The position numbers were made by a program, and so were the translations under genes. A stretch of 41,674 bases of DNA from Solobacterium sp. (GTDB lineage Bacteria; Bacillota_I; Bacilli_A; Erysipelotrichales; Erysipelotrichaceae): positions 1-41,674 of the forward strand of contig JAFOMZ010000220.1 in the NCBI GenBank assembly GCA_017421125.1, given 5' to 3'. The notes under the pieces are model-generated. The model worked only from the letters and a program-made list of their open reading frames with translations. It was not told the origin of the DNA and ran no database searches. Each line of letters begins with the position of its first letter. Position 1 is the first letter of the stretch. Below, piece by piece: positions 29,887 to 41,591 of the stretch.

Positions 29887-30933
29887 ATGGCAAAAGAAAA
29901 GACAGTCCTGAGTGAACAGGATAAAAAAGATCAGCTGCTTCAGGATGCACTGAAAGCAATTGAGAAGGAATACGGCAAAGGAAGCATTATGCGTCTGGGA
30001 GACAGGGCTGATGTATCCGTTGACGCTATTTCCTCCGGATCGCTGTCACTGGACGCGGCGCTGGGGATCGGCGGTTATCCCAAGGGCAGGATCATCGAGA
30101 TCTACGGACCGGAATCCTCCGGTAAAACAACGCTCGCTCTGCATGCCATTGCGGAATGCCAGAAACAGGGCGGCAGATGCGCATTCATCGATGCTGAAAA
30201 TGCGATCGATCCGCTGTATGCGAAAAACCTCGGCGTTGATATCGATGAACTGATCCTTTCCCAGCCTGATTCGGGAGAACAGGCACTGGAGATCACGGAA
30301 GTCCTGATCAGGTCAGGCGCGATCGACCTGGTCGTTATCGACTCTGTTGCGGCACTTGTACCGCAGGCGGAACTGGACGGCGAGATGGGTGACTCATCGA
30401 TCGGTCTGCAGGCAAGGCTGATGTCCAAGGCAATGCGTAAGCTTGCCGGTGTTATGAACCGTTCCAACTGCACGGCGATCTTCATCAACCAGCTTCGTGA
30501 AAAAGTAGGTGTTATGTTCGGCAACCCCGAGACAACACCGGGCGGACGTGCACTGAAGTTCTACGCTTCGGTAAGACTGGATGTCCGCAGGGCAGAAACG
30601 CTGAAAAACGGCAGTGAGCCGATCGGCAATATCGTCAAGATCAAGGTCGTTAAGAACAAGGTCGCACCTCCGTTCAAGACAGCCCAGGTCAATATGATCT
30701 ATGGCGAGGGGATCGCGCATATCGATGAGGTGATCAACCTTGCAGTTGAAAATGAGATCATCGACAAATCCGGCGCATGGTTCTCCTATAAGGGAGAGAA
30801 GATCGGACAGGGCTTCATGAATGTCCGTGAATATGTGAAGAATCATCCGGAAATGGATGAAGAGATCACTGCAGCAGTCAAGGAAAAACTGTTCCCTCAG
30901 AAACCGGAGACTCCGGCAGAGGAACAGGCATAG
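29887..30933 (+). CDS. recA: Recombinase RecA
   Basis: A 348-residue strand-exchange protein. The Walker A motif is GPESSGKTT near residue 74; [25 protein letters not shown] (Walker B) and the L2 loop [21 protein letters not shown] are all present. The C-terminal tail is acidic, as usual. AAGGAG lies 11 nt before the ATG. The gene sits 50 bp after pgsA and ends at a strong terminator. No canonical LexA box was found in the gap, although a near-match exists (29839-29851), so SOS control through a proximal site is uncertain. Confidence 0.98.
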
Positions 30934-31097: not shown

Positions 31098-31147
31098 TAT
31101 GAGGAGAGTTTATCTCTTCACAACAATTGAATGGAGGAAAAATAAGT

Positions 31148-32701
31148 ATGAGTCCTATACTTGCCGTCATTCTTGCCGGTGTTGTTGGCATCGTGATCGG
31201 CATCGTCATCATGAAGATGGCAAGCAGTGCCGGTCTGGACCGCGCAAAGCTGCAGGCCCAGACGATTCTGGAAGAATCTAACGCCAAAGCAGAGAACATT
31301 GTACGTCAGGCAGAACTTGACGGTAAACAACAAGTCTATGAGATGAAGGAAAGAGCTGAACGGGAACTAAAGGGTCAGAGAAACAAGATCCAGCAGACCG
31401 AGAATAAGCTTTTGCGTCGAGAAGACAGTTTGAATTTCAGAGAAGAAAACCTCAACTCGAAAGAGAAAAAACTGGAACAGAAGACAAAGACTGTTGAAGA
31501 TGAGCTTGCGAACATCGACAAGATGCAGGCTGAATTGCAGAGTAAGATCAGTGAACAGATGACAGTTCTGGAAAATGTAGCCAGACTGTGTCAGGAAGAC
31601 GCCAGGAAACAGCTGATGGATGCTGTGGCAAAGAAATGTGAAAAGGATATCGGAGAATATCTGCACGAGCAGGATGAGATCGCTCAGGAAAAAGCAGCTC
31701 AGAATGCAAGGAACATTATCGCAACCGCGATCCAGCGCTATTCCCAGGATGAGACGATCGAACGTACAGTATCCGTCGTTACACTGCCCAGTGAAGACAT
31801 GAAGGGCAGGATCATCGGACGTGAAGGCAGAAACATCAAAGCAATCGAACAGGCGACAGGCGTTGACCTGATCATCGATGATACACCGGATGTGATCACT
31901 GTTTCCTGCTTTGACCCGATCCGCCGTGAGATCGCAAGACAGTCACTGGAGACATTGATGAAAGACGGCAGGATCCAGCCGGGAAGGATCGAAGATGTCG
32001 TTGCGAAAGTAACGAAAGAAATGGATGAGACCGTTCAGAGGATCGGTGAAGAGGCGATCTTCAAGCTCAGCATCGGGCGCATGAACAAAGAACTGGTCAA
32101 ACTCCTCGGAAGACTGCGCTTCCGTTACAGCTATGGTCAGAACGTACTGGAACATTCCATGGAAGTGGCAGTGTTTACAGGCATTATGGCTGCTGAGCTG
32201 GGCCTGAACCAGAGCCTGGCAAAGCGTGCTGGACTGCTTCATGATATCGGCAAAGCGATTGACTTTGAACAGGAAGGCTCACATGTTGAGCTTGGCGCGA
32301 AGGTTGCCAAGAAATACGGTGAGAACTCGATCGTCGTCAATTCGATCGAATCACATCATGGCGACGTGATGGCCTCGGATATCATTGCCGAGCTGGTAGC
32401 TGCCGCAGATACACTGTCTGCCGCAAGACCCGGCGCAAGATATGAGTCCATGGAAAACTATATCGAACGTCTGGAACAGCTCGAAACGATCGCCCAGAGC
32501 TATGACGGTGTCGAAAAGGCATATGCGATCCAGGCAGGCCGTGAGATCAGAGTCCTGGTGCAGCCGGACAAGATCGATGACATGTCCATGGTGAAGGTCG
32601 CTCATGACCTCAAGGAGCGCATCCAGAATGAACTGACATATCCGGGACAGATCAAGGTAACTCTGATCCGTGAAGTCAGAGTCCAGGAACTCGCACAGTA
32701 A
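31148..32701 (+). CDS. rny: Ribonuclease Y
   Basis: A 517-residue membrane-tethered endoribonuclease that starts decay of many mRNAs in Firmicutes. Order: an N-terminal membrane helix (about 2-22), a long Glu/Lys/Gln-rich coiled coil (about 28-150), a KH RNA-binding domain (GRIIGREGRNIKAIEQATG near 218) and an HD domain with LLHDIGKA near 363. I chose ATG at 31148 because TGGAGG precedes it; an upstream TTG would include that site in the gene. It follows recA and precedes miaB at a distance, as in many Firmicutes, but here three genes intervene before miaB. Confidence 0.97.
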   Translation: MSPILAVILAGVVGIVIGIVIMKMASSAGLDRAKLQAQTILEESNAKAENIVRQAELDGKQQVYEMKERAERELKGQRNKIQQTENKLLRREDSLNFREENLNSKEKKLEQKTKTVEDELANIDKMQAELQSKISEQMTVLENVARLCQEDARKQLMDAVAKKCEKDIGEYLHEQDEIAQEKAAQNARNIIATAIQRYSQDETIERTVSVVTLPSEDMKGRIIGREGRNIKAIEQATGVDLIIDDTPDVITVSCFDPIRREIARQSLETLMKDGRIQPGRIEDVVAKVTKEMDETVQRIGEEAIFKLSIGRMNKELVKLLGRLRFRYSYGQNVLEHSMEVAVFTGIMAAELGLNQSLAKRAGLLHDIGKAIDFEQEGSHVELGAKVAKKYGENSIVVNSIESHHGDVMASDIIAELVAAADTLSAARPGARYESMENYIERLEQLETIAQSYDGVEKAYAIQAGREIRVLVQPDKIDDMSMVKVAHDLKERIQNELTYPGQIKVTLIREVRVQELAQ

Positions 32702-34648: not shown

Positions 34649-35359
34649 TTAATGGACCTGGCTCAGTTCAGCCTGTGATTCACCGGTCTGATAATTGATG
34701 ACGACACCGGGCTGTACGTTATAGCAATAGACACAGAAGCGCAGACCATCGTCTTCCGTTGACTGTGCTTCCAGCAGGACACCTCTGGCAACAAGTTCGG
34801 TCCCGACGAATACCGGGGTGACACGGTACAGGACAGGATTGCCAGTCCGGTAGATATAGGAAGCGATCATGCCTTCATAGTTCCGCATTCCCATATAGTT
34901 GAGATATCTTGTACCGGTGATCAGGTTCTTCGGATTCGCATTTTCACCGGTCAGGGCATATGCGATCAGGTGACAGCGGTTGTACAGATATTCATACTGA
35001 ATGAAATCATACTTATCCCATTGCCATCCGCTGGGAATGACATCCCTGATCTCACCGCGTTCTTCCTTCGGCATGGTATCCCTGGACACAAGGGCAAACG
35101 CGTATCCGCAGCGGTTCAGGCTGTCCAGTTCGCTGTAGAACTCAAAAGGTCCGCTGTCCAGTTCTTCATCCGTGAAAAAGGGGATTCCGTTATTGATCAC
35201 CGTATACGGTTCATTGCTGTATTCAGGTACTTCTTCATATGCGAATGTGCCGGGATACTCGGGATGGTACAGATCCAGCCTCTTCGCCAGATAAAGACCA
35301 AGCAGAATGATCAGACACAACGCTGCTGTACGCAGAAGGATCCGGTATGTTTTCTTCAT
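34649..35359 (-). CDS. DNA/RNA non-specific endonuclease, membrane-anchored (EndA-like)
   Basis: A 236-residue nuclease with an N-terminal signal anchor (about 7-25) and an extracytoplasmic beta-beta-alpha-metal nuclease domain. The active-site segment is YLYNRCHLIAYALTGENAN with the general base His130; NLITGTRYLN near 145 supplies the metal-binding Asn. In the classic family this reads DRGH; the NRCH form is common in the Firmicutes branch I know, so I do not read it as loss of activity. The C-terminus RFCVYCYNVQPGV is typical. Such enzymes degrade external DNA for nutrition or competence. No competence genes are adjacent. The start lacks a ribosome binding site, and TATAAT lies only 6 nt before the ATG, suggesting a leaderless mRNA. 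Confidence 0.88.
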   Translation of the reverse strand: MKKTYRILLRTAALCLIILLGLYLAKRLDLYHPEYPGTFAYEEVPEYSNEPYTVINNGIPFFTDEELDSGPFEFYSELDSLNRCGYAFALVSRDTMPKEERGEIRDVIPSGWQWDKYDFIQYEYLYNRCHLIAYALTGENANPKNLITGTRYLNYMGMRNYEGMIASYIYRTGNPVLYRVTPVFVGTELVARGVLLEAQSTEDDGLRFCVYCYNVQPGVVINYQTGESQAELSQVH

Positions 35360-35815: not shown

Positions 35816-35823
35816 ATTTGTCT

Positions 35824-37278
35824 ATGAAGAAGAGTATAGTAAATCTGCCCGACCAGAAAAGTGCCGGCAGAAGAAATCTGAAGGCGATCGCAGAACACCT
35901 GGATTTTGAAATGCCGCAGCATCTCTCTGATCTTGGTGAAGGACGCTCCTACTATGTCCGTACATACGGCTGCCAGGCAAATGTACGTGACGGAGAGACG
36001 ATCAGCGGACTGCTGGAAGAAATGCATTTCCATCCCGCCAACAGCGAGGAGGATGCTGATCTGCTGATCTTCAATACATGCGCGATCCGCAAGGCTGCGG
36101 AAGACCATGTACTCGGAGAGATCGGCAATCTCAAGCCTTTGAAAACAAAACATCCGGAAAAGATCTTTGCTGTATGCGGCTGTATGGCCCAGGAGGAAGG
36201 GATCGTCCGTGATCTGATCGAGAAATACCCCCAGGTCGACCTGGTGTTCGGTACACATAACCTGCATGAACTGCCGGAACTGCTGGAAGCTGTTATGAAA
36301 GGTGAACGCAGGATCGCTGTCTATTCCGAAGAGGGCAAGATCATTGAAGGTCTGCCTTCAAGGCGTATCAAGCCCTACAAAGCATTTGTCAATATTATGT
36401 ACGGATGCGATAAGTTCTGCACTTACTGCATCGTACCGTATACGAGAGGCAAACAGCGTTCCCGCCGCATGGAAGATATCCTGCGGGAGATCCGCACGTT
36501 CAAAGAACAGGGCGGCAGGGAAATACAGCTGCTCGGCCAGAACGTCAATGCCTATGGAAAAGATCTCGGTATGGAAGACGGTTTTACAAAGCTCCTGGAA
36601 GCCTGTGCTGAGACCGGCATCGACCGTATCCGCTTCTATACGAGTCATCCCCGTGACTACAGCATCACGACGATCGAAGCGATGCAGAAGTATCCTTCCG
36701 TCATGAAGTCGCTCCACCTGCCTGTGCAGAGCGGCAGTGATGAGGTGCTGCGCAGGATGAACCGCGGCTATACAAGTGCTGATTACAGGCACCTTGTAGA
36801 TGAGATGAAGGCAAGGATCCCCGACATCACGTTCACGACAGATCTGATCGTCGGATTCCCCGGCGAAACGGACGAACAGTTCCAAGAAACACTTGACCTT
36901 GTGGACTACTGTCAGTTCGATTCCGCGTTTACCTTTATCTTCAGTGCCAGGGAAGGAACACCGGCTGCGAAATTCGAAGATCATCTGAGCCAGGATGTCA
37001 AAAAAGAGCGTCTGCAGATGCTGAATGACAGGATCGGCCTGTATGCAAAAAAGAATAACGACGCATATGTCGGAAGGACATTGAAGATACTGTGTGAAGG
37101 ACCTTCCCGCAAACGTACGGATGTATTCTCCGGATACAGTGAAGAAAACAAACTGGTGAATTTCGCCGGACATGACCTGAAAGAAGGAGAAATCTACGAC
37201 GTGCTCATTACCGGAGCAAAAAGTTATACACTGGACGGTGAAGCAGTGTCCGGCCATTTGGAGAATAAGGAGATTTAA
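35824..37278 (+). CDS. miaB: tRNA-2-methylthio-N6-dimethylallyladenosine synthase MiaB
   Basis: A 484-residue radical-SAM methylthiotransferase that adds a methylthio group to i6A37 of tRNAs. The N-terminal UPF0004 domain supplies the auxiliary cluster Cys50 (TYGCQAN), Cys86 (NTCAIR) and Cys120 (CGCMA). The radical-SAM cluster is C195-x3-C199-x2-C202 (YGCDKFCTYC). A C-terminal TRAM domain (about 415-475) begins near YVGRTLKILCEG. LHLPVQSGSDEVL and FTFIFSAREGTPAA are family segments. The N-terminal 35 residues before the Cys domain are present in Bacillus-type MiaB too. The ATG at 35824 has no ribosome binding site; a TTG two codons earlier is the alternative. The extended -10 close by suggests a leaderless start. 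Confidence 0.95.
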   Translation: MKKSIVNLPDQKSAGRRNLKAIAEHLDFEMPQHLSDLGEGRSYYVRTYGCQANVRDGETISGLLEEMHFHPANSEEDADLLIFNTCAIRKAAEDHVLGEIGNLKPLKTKHPEKIFAVCGCMAQEEGIVRDLIEKYPQVDLVFGTHNLHELPELLEAVMKGERRIAVYSEEGKIIEGLPSRRIKPYKAFVNIMYGCDKFCTYCIVPYTRGKQRSRRMEDILREIRTFKEQGGREIQLLGQNVNAYGKDLGMEDGFTKLLEACAETGIDRIRFYTSHPRDYSITTIEAMQKYPSVMKSLHLPVQSGSDEVLRRMNRGYTSADYRHLVDEMKARIPDITFTTDLIVGFPGETDEQFQETLDLVDYCQFDSAFTFIFSAREGTPAAKFEDHLSQDVKKERLQMLNDRIGLYAKKNNDAYVGRTLKILCEGPSRKRTDVFSGYSEENKLVNFAGHDLKEGEIYDVLITGAKSYTLDGEAVSGHLENKEI

Positions 37279-37324: not shown

Positions 37325-38989
37325 ATGAGTAAAGTAAGGATTTTTGCGCTTGGCGGTCTTGATGAAGACGGCAAGAATATGTTCATTGTTGAAAATGACG
37401 ACGATATCTATGCGATTGAATGCGGCCTGCGGTATCCTGAAGCAGATCAGCTCGGTATCCAGAAAATAGTCCCTGATTTCCAGTATCTGTCGGAACACGC
37501 AGATCAGGTCAAAGGTGTCTTTATCACGCACGGTCATGAAGATGTGATCGGCGCGTTGTGCAACCTGTTGAAGGAGATCAATCTTCCTGTATATATGACA
37601 CCTCTGACAGCCAGGATGTTCGAGCGGAAGGCGAAGGAAGCAGGTCTGAAGGATCTGAATATACACAGGATCAGAAGGAACTCAACGTTCAAGATCGGAA
37701 AGACCGAGATCCGCACATTCGGAACCACGCAGTCCATCGCAGATGGATTCGGTGTTGCGATCCGTACGGAAGACGGTTATGTCGTCTATACCAGTGAGTT
37801 CATCGTCGACTACGATATCAAGAGCGAAGCATTCAGGTTTGACCTGCTTGATGTCACGGATCTTGGATCAAAGGGCGTCCTTGCCCTGATGACCGAATCA
37901 GTCGGCTCGACCCGTGAGGGACACAGCGCTCCCAATCACAGGATCACCCGTCTGATCGAACCGTATTTCGAAGAAACAAAGAACAGGATCATTGTCAGCT
38001 GCTACAACAGCAACCTCTACCGTGTCATCGAACTGGTAGAACTGGCAAATAAATACAACCGCAAGGTCATGATCTATGATGAGGAACTGCGCAACCTGAT
38101 GAAAGATATGGCTGCCCTGGGATACTACAGGATCCCGGCAGGCCTGGATATCGTTCCGCAGAACTTCTCAAATGATGCGGAAAACATTCTGCTGATCATT
38201 GCAGGCGACGGATCCAGTATCTTCCGTAAGGTCCATAAGATCGTGACAAAGGAAGACGACATCGTCCAGCTGAGACCAACGGATACTGTCATCATCGCTT
38301 CACCTGCAGTGCCGGGTACCGAACGCGGCGCGGCAGGTATGGAAGATGAAATGTACAAGGAAACATCCCGGGTACACGGGATCGATTCCAAGCGTACATT
38401 CTCAATGCACGCGTCCATCGAAGACCTGAAGATGATGATCTATCTGCTCAATCCGCAGTACTATATCCCTGTTAAAGGTGAATACAGACAACTGATATCC
38501 AATGCGAATATCGCACTCGATATGGGATATCCGGCAAACAACATTATCGTGCTTGACAACGGACAGGTCGCAACGATCGAAAACGGCCAGCTGAAACGCG
38601 GGTATGATTCTGTGCCTGTAGGCGATATACTGGTAGACGGCAACGATTCCCTTGACGCTTCAGGTATGGTCCTGAAAGACCGTGAACTGCTCTCGACTGA
38701 CGGCGCGATCGTAGTCGGCATCGTGATCAACCATATGACCAAAGAGATCATTGGCGGACCTGACGTACAGTCACGCGGCGTGATCTACCTGAAAGATGCC
38801 GATTATATTATTAAGGAGATCGGCAATATCATGGAGCGCACGATCGATGAAGCTGTAGAAGCGGATCGTTATGACAACCTGCAGTGCCGTGCTGAGGCAA
38901 GAGAAAAGATCAGCAGGTATGTTCTGAAAGAGACCGGCAAGCATCCGATGATCCTGCCGGCAATCGTGGAAATCAATACAACAGATTAG
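37325..38989 (+). CDS. rnjB: RNase J2-like protein, several catalytic residues replaced
   Basis: A 554-residue beta-CASP metallo-beta-lactamase-fold RNase J protein. Fold landmarks are RIFALGGLDEDGKNMF, FITHGHEDVIGAL near residue 67, SIADGFG, IIVSCYNSNLYRV and PVKGEYRQL near 375. Compared with the RNase J1 metal site, HGHEDHIG has become HGHEDVIG (Val74 for His), the NHSIPDS-like segment reads TTQSIADG (Gln for His), the DSTNAE-like segment reads TESVGS and VHGEYR reads VKGEYR (Lys for His). I infer weak or no nuclease activity and a J2-type role as partner of a J1 encoded elsewhere. The neighbour of B. subtilis rnjB is spoIIIE, as here. GGAGG precedes the ATG, which is 46 bp after miaB. Confidence 0.85.
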   Translation: MSKVRIFALGGLDEDGKNMFIVENDDDIYAIECGLRYPEADQLGIQKIVPDFQYLSEHADQVKGVFITHGHEDVIGALCNLLKEINLPVYMTPLTARMFERKAKEAGLKDLNIHRIRRNSTFKIGKTEIRTFGTTQSIADGFGVAIRTEDGYVVYTSEFIVDYDIKSEAFRFDLLDVTDLGSKGVLALMTESVGSTREGHSAPNHRITRLIEPYFEETKNRIIVSCYNSNLYRVIELVELANKYNRKVMIYDEELRNLMKDMAALGYYRIPAGLDIVPQNFSNDAENILLIIAGDGSSIFRKVHKIVTKEDDIVQLRPTDTVIIASPAVPGTERGAAGMEDEMYKETSRVHGIDSKRTFSMHASIEDLKMMIYLLNPQYYIPVKGEYRQLISNANIALDMGYPANNIIVLDNGQVATIENGQLKRGYDSVPVGDILVDGNDSLDASGMVLKDRELLSTDGAIVVGIVINHMTKEIIGGPDVQSRGVIYLKDADYIIKEIGNIMERTIDEAVEADRYDNLQCRAEAREKISRYVLKETGKHPMILPAIVEINTTD

Positions 38990-39002: not shown

Positions 39003-41591
39003 GTGGCAGCTAAAAAAACAACCAGATCAAATTCACGCAGTAAGTCTGCTCAGCAGAGAAGGCTGGCGGCTCAGAAAAAAGCCCAGGAAGCGGAACTGAG
39101 GAGATATATCCTGATCGTTCTGATCAGCGCTGTCACCCTTGTCGCATATATGCGCATGGGTGTGGTCGGCGTTGTTCTGAACAATGCGCAGAGATTTCTC
39201 TTCGGCCGTTTCTATTTCATCGTGATGGGCGTGATTCTGATTCAGATCGCGGTACTGATCATCAACGGAAGGAGCGGCATCACCAACAGCCGGAACCCAT
39301 GGGCGGTCGTACTGATCCTTGCAGCGTTTATGCTGATATGTTCCATGGTGGACACACCGCAGGAACTGCGCGGATGGGATATCTGGAAATCATATACAGA
39401 AGATCTGAGGCAGTATTTTACAGAAGCACCTGAAAACACCGGAGGCGGTGTGATTGGTGCACTTTTGCTGTCCCTGACAACAATGCTGCTGGGAAGGGCA
39501 GGAACGGTCGTCGTGATCATTGTGCTCTTCATTATCGCTGCATTGCTGCTGGTCAGCCTTGAGACCTATAAACAGGCATTCGGAACGATCAAGGAATACT
39601 TCACCAGACCGCTCGAAGATGACGATGGCGATGAAGAGGATTATGAGGAACCGGCTGAGACATCATCCGAGCCGGAACAGAAACAGCCGAATATCTTCAT
39701 GAGATTCATCAACTGGTTCTTCATGGAAGACGCAGATGATGACGATGAAGAAGAGGAGGAAGAAGAACCTGCACCGAAGCAGTATCTGATCCCCGAAAAG
39801 ACAAAACCGGAACCGGAGCCTGTACGCCAGCTCGGTTTCCGTATCGATGATTATGAACCATCCACGGAAGACATGGTACCTGTCAAGAGTAAGCCGATCG
39901 AAGAGACAAAATCGATCTTCCTGAGCATCGACGATCTGGTCGACAGGAATGACAGGCCGCAGGTACCCAGACAGGAGATCACCCTGGATGAAGAACCGGT
40001 CATTGCGCCGCCTCCGGTGTACGTGCCGGAACCTGAACCGGAGCCTGTTGTACCGCAGCCCGCAGTACAGCAGCCTGCACCGGCACCGGCTGTACAGACA
40101 CCTGTTCAGCAAACACCGGCAAGGAGATCCAACAAGCCGTATCAGCTTCCGAAGATGAACCTGCTGGATCCGATCCCGGTCAAGCCGAAGGATGATCCCA
40201 ATGTCGAGGCAGCACAGGAGAAAGGCGAACTGCTGATCCAGGTGCTGAGAAACTTCGATATTGAAGCAAGACTGCTTGAAACACATATCGGACCGGCGGT
40301 CACAAAGTTTGAGATCCGTCCGGAATCCAATGTCAAGGTCAGCAAGATCCTGAATCTGACAGATGATGTCAAGATGCAGCTGGCTGTCCGCGATATCCGT
40401 ATTGAAGCACCGATCCCCGGTCATAATGCCGTGGGTGTTGAAGTACCGAACGTCCAGCCGATCCCTGTCAAGATGAAGGAGCTCATTCAGATGATCCCGG
40501 AAAAGGACAAGAATCAGCCGCTGCTGTTCATTCTCGGCAAAGACCTGCTTGGCAACTGCGTGACATGCCGTCTCGACAAGATGCCGCATCTCCTGATCGC
40601 AGGTGCTACCGGATCGGGAAAGAGCGTATGTATGAACTCCATCATCACTTCGCTCCTCATGCGGACAAAACCGGATGAAGTGAAGATGCTGCTGATCGAC
40701 CCGAAGAAGGTCGAATTCACGCCGTATCACAAGATCCCGCATCTGATCGGTCCGGTCATCAACGATCCTTCCAAGGCCAACAATGCCCTGAAGGTCATCG
40801 TCAGGATCATGGAAGAACGCTATGACATCTTCAGCAAATGCGGTGTCAGAAATATCCAGGTCTACAACGAAAAGGTGAAGGATGGTTCCATCAACAACGG
40901 AAATACACCTGCCCAGCCCGATTATCAGTTCATGCCTTATATCGTCGTCATTATCGATGAGTTGGCCGACCTGATGGCTGTTGCCGGAAAAGAAGTTGAA
41001 GGCAGCATCCAGAGGATCACCCAGCTTGCAAGAGCTGCCGGTATCCATCTGATCGTCGCGACCCAGAGACCTTCCACGGATGTCATCACAGGCATCATCA
41101 AAGCAAATATCCCAAGCCGTATCGCGTTCTCCGTATCCAGCGGAATCGACTCCAGAACGATCCTGGACCATGTCGGAGCGGAGCGTCTGCTCGGAAACGG
41201 CGATATGCTGTATATGCCGATCGGACAGTCTGCAGCCACCCGTGTACAGGGTGTGTTTGTAACGGATGATGAAGTCCATAGGATCACAGACTTCGTTTCA
41301 AGCCAGACAGTACCGATGTATGATGACGCGTTTGTTCTCCTGGAAGGAGTGGAAGGCGGCGAGGATATTGCTGTTGTCGGCGCTGATGCCGATCCGCTCT
41401 ATGAAGAGATCAAAGCTTATGTCATCGATGCACAGAAAGCATCCACATCACTCCTGCAGAGAAGATTCGGCATCGGCTACAACCGTGCTGCAAGAATGAT
41501 CGATCTGCTGGAACAGAAAGGTGTGATCGGTCCCGCACAGGGATCCAAACCCAGAGAAGTCTTTATCAAGAAAGACAGCTCACAGGAATGA
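39003..41591 (+). CDS. ftsK: DNA translocase FtsK/SpoIIIE
   Basis: An 862-residue septal DNA pump that clears chromosome DNA from the division site. Order: a Lys/Arg/Gln-rich N-terminus, about four to five membrane helices between residues 35 and 186, an acidic Pro/Glu-rich linker (about 195-395), the alpha/beta motor domain with Walker A GATGSGKSV near 533 and Walker B VVIIDELADLM near 643, and the C-terminal gamma winged helix (LLQRRFGIGYNRAARMID near 820) that reads polar DNA sequences. It starts with GTG at 39003, 13 bp after the rnjB stop, preceded by GAGGAA. The linker, rich in Glu/Asp and PEPEP runs, is long compared with SpoIIIE. A strong terminator follows. Confidence 0.95.
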   Translation: MAAKKTTRSNSRSKSAQQRRLAAQKKAQEAELRRYILIVLISAVTLVAYMRMGVVGVVLNNAQRFLFGRFYFIVMGVILIQIAVLIINGRSGITNSRNPWAVVLILAAFMLICSMVDTPQELRGWDIWKSYTEDLRQYFTEAPENTGGGVIGALLLSLTTMLLGRAGTVVVIIVLFIIAALLLVSLETYKQAFGTIKEYFTRPLEDDDGDEEDYEEPAETSSEPEQKQPNIFMRFINWFFMEDADDDDEEEEEEEPAPKQYLIPEKTKPEPEPVRQLGFRIDDYEPSTEDMVPVKSKPIEETKSIFLSIDDLVDRNDRPQVPRQEITLDEEPVIAPPPVYVPEPEPEPVVPQPAVQQPAPAPAVQTPVQQTPARRSNKPYQLPKMNLLDPIPVKPKDDPNVEAAQEKGELLIQVLRNFDIEARLLETHIGPAVTKFEIRPESNVKVSKILNLTDDVKMQLAVRDIRIEAPIPGHNAVGVEVPNVQPIPVKMKELIQMIPEKDKNQPLLFILGKDLLGNCVTCRLDKMPHLLIAGATGSGKSVCMNSIITSLLMRTKPDEVKMLLIDPKKVEFTPYHKIPHLIGPVINDPSKANNALKVIVRIMEERYDIFSKCGVRNIQVYNEKVKDGSINNGNTPAQPDYQFMPYIVVIIDELADLMAVAGKEVEGSIQRITQLARAAGIHLIVATQRPSTDVITGIIKANIPSRIAFSVSSGIDSRTILDHVGAERLLGNGDMLYMPIGQSAATRVQGVFVTDDEVHRITDFVSSQTVPMYDDAFVLLEGVEGGEDIAVVGADADPLYEEIKAYVIDAQKASTSLLQRRFGIGYNRAARMIDLLEQKGVIGPAQGSKPREVFIKKDSSQE

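Follow-up and report, generated by a model that had tools for sequence, protein, structure and literature searches.

The locus

The gene at 37325..38989 (+) encodes a full-length RNase J with replacements at four of its seven metal ligands, and the question is what function such a protein can have. It lies in a 41,674-nt window (the whole stretch of DNA that was analysed) from a metagenome-assembled genome (MAG) with estimated completeness 84.6%; its closest named records come from rumen and gut and are MAGs labelled 'Solobacterium sp.' or Erysipelotrichaceae. The gene starts with ATG, codes for 554 amino acids and was assigned as RNase J2-type (rnjB-like) by its open reading frame, family profile, tree position and structure match.

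On the same strand, miaB (35818..37278, +) ends 46 nt upstream and a gene for an ftsK/spoIIIE-type DNA translocase (39003..41591, +) begins 13 nt downstream. The preliminary description had placed the gene beside ftsK. This adjacency holds well beyond the window: where the flanking sequence suffices, almost every Erysipelotrichaceae locus has ftsK directly 3′ of the J2 gene, and the same order recurs in 18 of 20 loci of the sister family and in a few families further removed; miaB is found upstream in most Erysipelotrichaceae. In B. subtilis, rnjB, tepA and spoIIIE are presumably grouped, with recA, rny and miaB close by.

A gene for RNase Y (31127..32701, +; domains RNase_Y_N, KH and HD) belongs to the same neighbourhood, so that two RNA-decay genes are located within about 8 kb; RNase Y is a likely partner in the RNA-decay machinery. 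A RecA gene is found at 29887-30933, and both the RNase Y and RecA genes are at most about 8 kb upstream of the J2 gene. The minus strand carries, at 34649-35359, a gene for a small protein with the Endonuclea_NS_2 domain (DNA/RNA non-specific endonuclease), whose N terminus appears to form a membrane or signal segment.

Domains and fold

The protein is a full-length member of the RNase J family with all four domains. It scores 429.7 bits against the NCBIfam family model TIGR00649 (cut-off 400), and a domain search placed PF00753, PF22505, PF07521 and PF17770 each above cut-off; the last of these, the RNase J C-terminal (dimerisation) domain, is encoded at 38669..38974 (+; residues 449-550, 84.6 bits). 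An AlphaFold2 (AF2) model had mean pLDDT 88.8 and pTM 0.76. Its closest match was to the S. epidermidis J2 structures (Z 49-50, rmsd 2.0-2.6 Å over ~430 residues), within a range of VIA Z 44-50 for bacterial RNase J entries; the best full-length Foldseek match was chain A of 9a5v, an integrative RNJ2-RNJ1 model. The top PDB match by sequence was 6k6w (E 7e-97).

The metal site

Site residues were read from an alignment of the window protein with J1 and J2 homologues, using the numbering of B. subtilis RNase J1, in which the ligands are H74, H76, D78, H79, H142, D164 and H390 (PMC7864078, PMC5383250). At the corresponding residues 69, 71, 73, 74, 136, 158 and 384, the window protein reads H, H, D, V, Q, E and K; thus H74, H76 and D78 are kept, while H79, H142, D164 and H390 are replaced. 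The motif HGHEDH (74-79) of J1 reads H69-G-H71-E-D73-V74 (37529..37546, +), with Val in place of its last His, a metal 2 ligand. The metal 1 ligand H142 is Gln136 (37730..37732, +), in a segment reading TQSIADG versus HSIPD, and D164, which bridges both metals, is Glu158 (37796..37798, +; TSEF versus TGDF). The other metal 2 ligand, H390, is Lys384 (38474..38476, +; KGEYR versus HGEYR), and Lys is present at this position in 77 of 81 J2s of the family and 20 of 21 of the sister family.

Outside the ligand set, the Asp of the J1 segment SDSTN is Glu191 (37895..37897, +; TESVGS). Among the 5′-phosphate residues H364 is lost, S366 corresponds to Ser360 and H368 to His362 (38408..38410, +), which is invariant in all 81 J2s of the family; in J1, H368 is a 5′-phosphate/substrate residue (PMC7864078).

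The preliminary description had listed the changes HGHEDH to HGHEDV, His to Gln in the SIPD-like segment and VHGEYR to VKGEYR, as well as a change of the DSTN-like Asp. All four are real; the replacement of D164 by Glu158 is a further change absent from that list. The metal site was, moreover, described as dismantled. This wording is too strong for a site where three of seven remain and where the substitutes are themselves conserved.

With three ligands in place, the protein might be a weakly active one-metal nuclease with substrates of its own, similar to J2 of S. epidermidis or E. faecalis, and residues H69, H71 and D73 are indeed nearly invariant. The S. epidermidis protein, which lacks H79 and has the equivalent of D164E, binds one Mn and is a weak endonuclease (PMC7864078), and the weak exonuclease of E. 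faecalis needs the same two His and matters in vivo, with its D73A mutant staying active (PMC5383250). However, H142, an observed ligand kept in S. epidermidis J2, is Gln in the genus of the window, and relatives that have lost H74 (Gln in L146 and L147) or H76 (Asn in L142 and L143) have kept the gene; such losses would be difficult to explain if the metal site were essential. We consider a one-metal nuclease possible, though rather unlikely.

A J2 paralogue beside an intact J1

In a maximum likelihood tree of 76 rows (quick search, SH-aLRT support only), the window protein grouped with S. epidermidis J2 (6k6w) and other J2s of the class with SH-aLRT 100 and a branch of 0.71, apart from J1 of B. 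subtilis, S. epidermidis and Erysipelotrichales. A separate rnjA with an intact site, which the preliminary description had suggested looking for, was found in the same MAG on contig C236 (L001:1009-2808, minus strand). Its product has seven of seven metal ligands and passes the NCBIfam J1 model with 842.9 bits (cut-off 820); the possibility that the genome has no other RNase J is thereby ruled out. The two proteins share about 28% identity. The full ligand set is present in 38 of 38 J1s read, and three of seven ligands in all 52 J2s of the genus covering these positions.

Could the window protein nevertheless be the J1, or a stand-alone RNase J with different ligands, the other copy being auxiliary? 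Membership in the RNase J family agrees with such a role and nothing beyond it does. It is the other copy that has both the full ligand set and the J1 score, while the window protein, with three ligands, reaches 433 bits against the same J1 model and falls into the J2 clade; we regard this reversal of roles as very improbable. Ligands of the second metal site are changed (H79V, D164E and H390K) next to an intact-site J1 in the same genome, and the window protein is best explained as RNase J2 (RnjB) of a bacterium from the Erysipelotrichaceae, in agreement with the J2-type paralogue proposed in the preliminary description.

Conservation and selection

The same site residues were found in independent MAGs of the same or neighbouring species, two of them 99% identical (L034 and L005) and a third at 90-91% (L006). 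Among the 52-53 J2s of the genus that cover a given pocket residue, at most one departs from it; across the family D73 and H362 are invariant, with H69, H71, V74, E158, E191 and K384 nearly so. Recurrence of these residues in dozens of independent MAGs rules out sequencing error. For close pairs of J2 genes dN/dS was 0.01-0.04 (pairwise YN00, with NG86 as fallback; dS was saturated for distant pairs), and the between-species divergence of J2 is only about 1.4 times that of J1. A J2-type gene is kept in 55 of 59 genomes of the genus, the four others being incomplete drafts (74-95%), and in 40 of 40 genomes of the sister family. A decaying pseudogene or non-functional leftover, to which the many replaced catalytic residues might point, is refuted by these selection data and by full-length open frames in dozens of species, and its probability is negligible. 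The pocket has been remodelled and then frozen across the family; it is not decaying.

Two genomes deserve mention. In G033 (same genus, 95% complete) a J1 of intact length was present and no J2 was found, owing to either a contig gap or a real loss. G326, a genome of the same family with an estimated completeness of 99%, gave no candidate for any RNase J, which suggests a data problem over a real loss.

Within J2, conservation is highest in the C-terminal domain. We considered special conservation of this domain as an argument for a pure partner role and rejected it: the domain is equally conserved in J1, with a ratio to the MBL domain that is similar, and its conservation thus does not single out a partner role.

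Stepwise loss of ligands

Comparison across the class makes the window protein one step in a graded series and not an isolated oddity. The J2s of the class outside Erysipelotrichales mostly keep six or five of the seven ligands; none of the 23 has His at position 390. In Erysipelotrichales, with few exceptions, Val or Ala almost always replaces H79, Glu replaces D164 and Lys occupies position 390; the genus of the window and several further genera of Erysipelotrichaceae have Gln for H142 as well. The losses therefore look stepwise, with H390 lost first across the class, then H79, then D164 and, in the clade of the window, H142.

The order is not universal. Two genomes of another genus in the same family (the L146 and L147 loci mentioned above) retain His at 142 and 390 while having lost H74, the reverse of the pattern of the window; different ligands have thus been lost in different lineages. 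The extreme end of the series is a J2 gene (L180:47-1774, minus strand) from a member of the class with a genome of ~0.8 Mb (G321), where the seven positions read N, S, Y, N, A, D and K: nearly all metal ligands are gone and the frame is full-length.

By raw counts, Lys390 occurs in 44 of 53 J2s that have lost H79 versus one of 12 that have kept it. As these counts reduce to two or three independent pairs on the tree, and a sign test gave no support, a coupling of Lys390 to loss of H79 is suggestive at most.

Known RNase J2 proteins

Altered or dispensable active sites have been described before in J2 paralogues. The J2s of S. epidermidis and S. aureus (PDB 6k6w, 8yyf-8yyk) resemble the window protein in their place in the J2 clade, in their intact fold and as partners of an intact J1. 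In these proteins, too, four of seven ligands are changed: the first two His are kept, H79 (Ala) and H390 (Gln) are lost and D164 is Glu. The fourth change differs, since staphylococcal J2 keeps H142 and has D78 replaced by His, whereas the window protein keeps D78 and has Gln for H142; at position 390 it has Lys. In E. faecalis J2 the two leading His of the motif and its Asp are numbered as in the window protein (H69, H71, D73), and the second metal site is conserved in neither (PMC5383250). A weak exonuclease activity, needed for pilus expression, was measured for E. faecalis J2. RNase J1, as in B. subtilis (3zq4) or in the window's own genome, has the same domain order (MBL, beta-CASP, RMMBL, C-terminal domain) but, unlike the window protein, all seven ligands plus H364.

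The authors of the S. epidermidis study noted that the sites of other J2s still awaited characterisation (PMC7864078). A literature search on RNase J in Erysipelotrichia found nothing, and we found no published description of the stepwise series or of the pattern in Erysipelotrichales, where position 390 is almost always Lys and position 142 is Gln in the clade of the window.

Proposed role

With both metal 2 ligands replaced (H79V and H390K), the bridging Asp changed to Glu and one metal 1 ligand changed to Gln, the two-metal reaction presumably cannot run normally. By analogy with S. aureus, J2 would bind RNase J1 through its C-terminal domain and support the 5′ exonuclease work of J1 as a catalytically poor or inactive subunit of a J1+J2 complex, a reading to which we assign a probability of roughly three in four. 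Residues H69, H71, D73, E158, H362 and K384 would then serve fold stability, binding of RNA or its 5′-phosphate, or both, and not two-metal hydrolysis.

In S. aureus, an active-site mutant of J2 grows like the wild type while deletion of J2 is harmful, and the protein was proposed to be a structural part of the J1+J2 complex (PMC3937233). Binding of J1 to J2 in E. faecalis has a KD of 74 nM and is independent of the J2 active site (PMC5383250). The J2 of S. mutans was reported to be potently active (PMC6759994); J2 paralogues thus vary widely.

Some points count against the partner role. The J2 of S. epidermidis holds one metal (PMC7864078), and H69, H71, D73 and E158 could allow the window protein to do likewise; the conservation of the pocket exceeds what an unused pocket would need. 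The preliminary description had seen a J2-type pseudo-nuclease kept as a structural partner. Its J2-type identity is borne out by the intact J1 in the genome, the tree and the conserved adjacency to ftsK. A complete lack of nuclease activity and a purely structural role are conjectural: the equivalents of H74 and H76, on which the weak exonuclease of E. faecalis J2 depends (PMC5383250), are retained, and the pocket is frozen.

A more specific role for the pocket in Erysipelotrichales J2s can be put forward tentatively. Here K384 might fill the place of the second metal and pair with D73 and E158, and the resulting metal-free pocket, with H362 and S360 kept, might hold RNA 5′ ends and hand them to J1 or regulate it. 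The idea is appealing, but the independent events on the tree are too few to back a coupling.

These J2s bear on what RNase J2 does in the RNA decay of Gram-positive bacteria once its active site is broken. J2 is under purifying selection in the lineages tested and is accompanied by an intact J1 wherever one was read. The graded natural series, from loss of H390 through H79, D164 and H142 to near-total loss, offers a way to test which pocket residues J2 needs. If Lys does stand in for the metal in the pocket, J2 would be an RNA-sensing subunit and more than a spacer.
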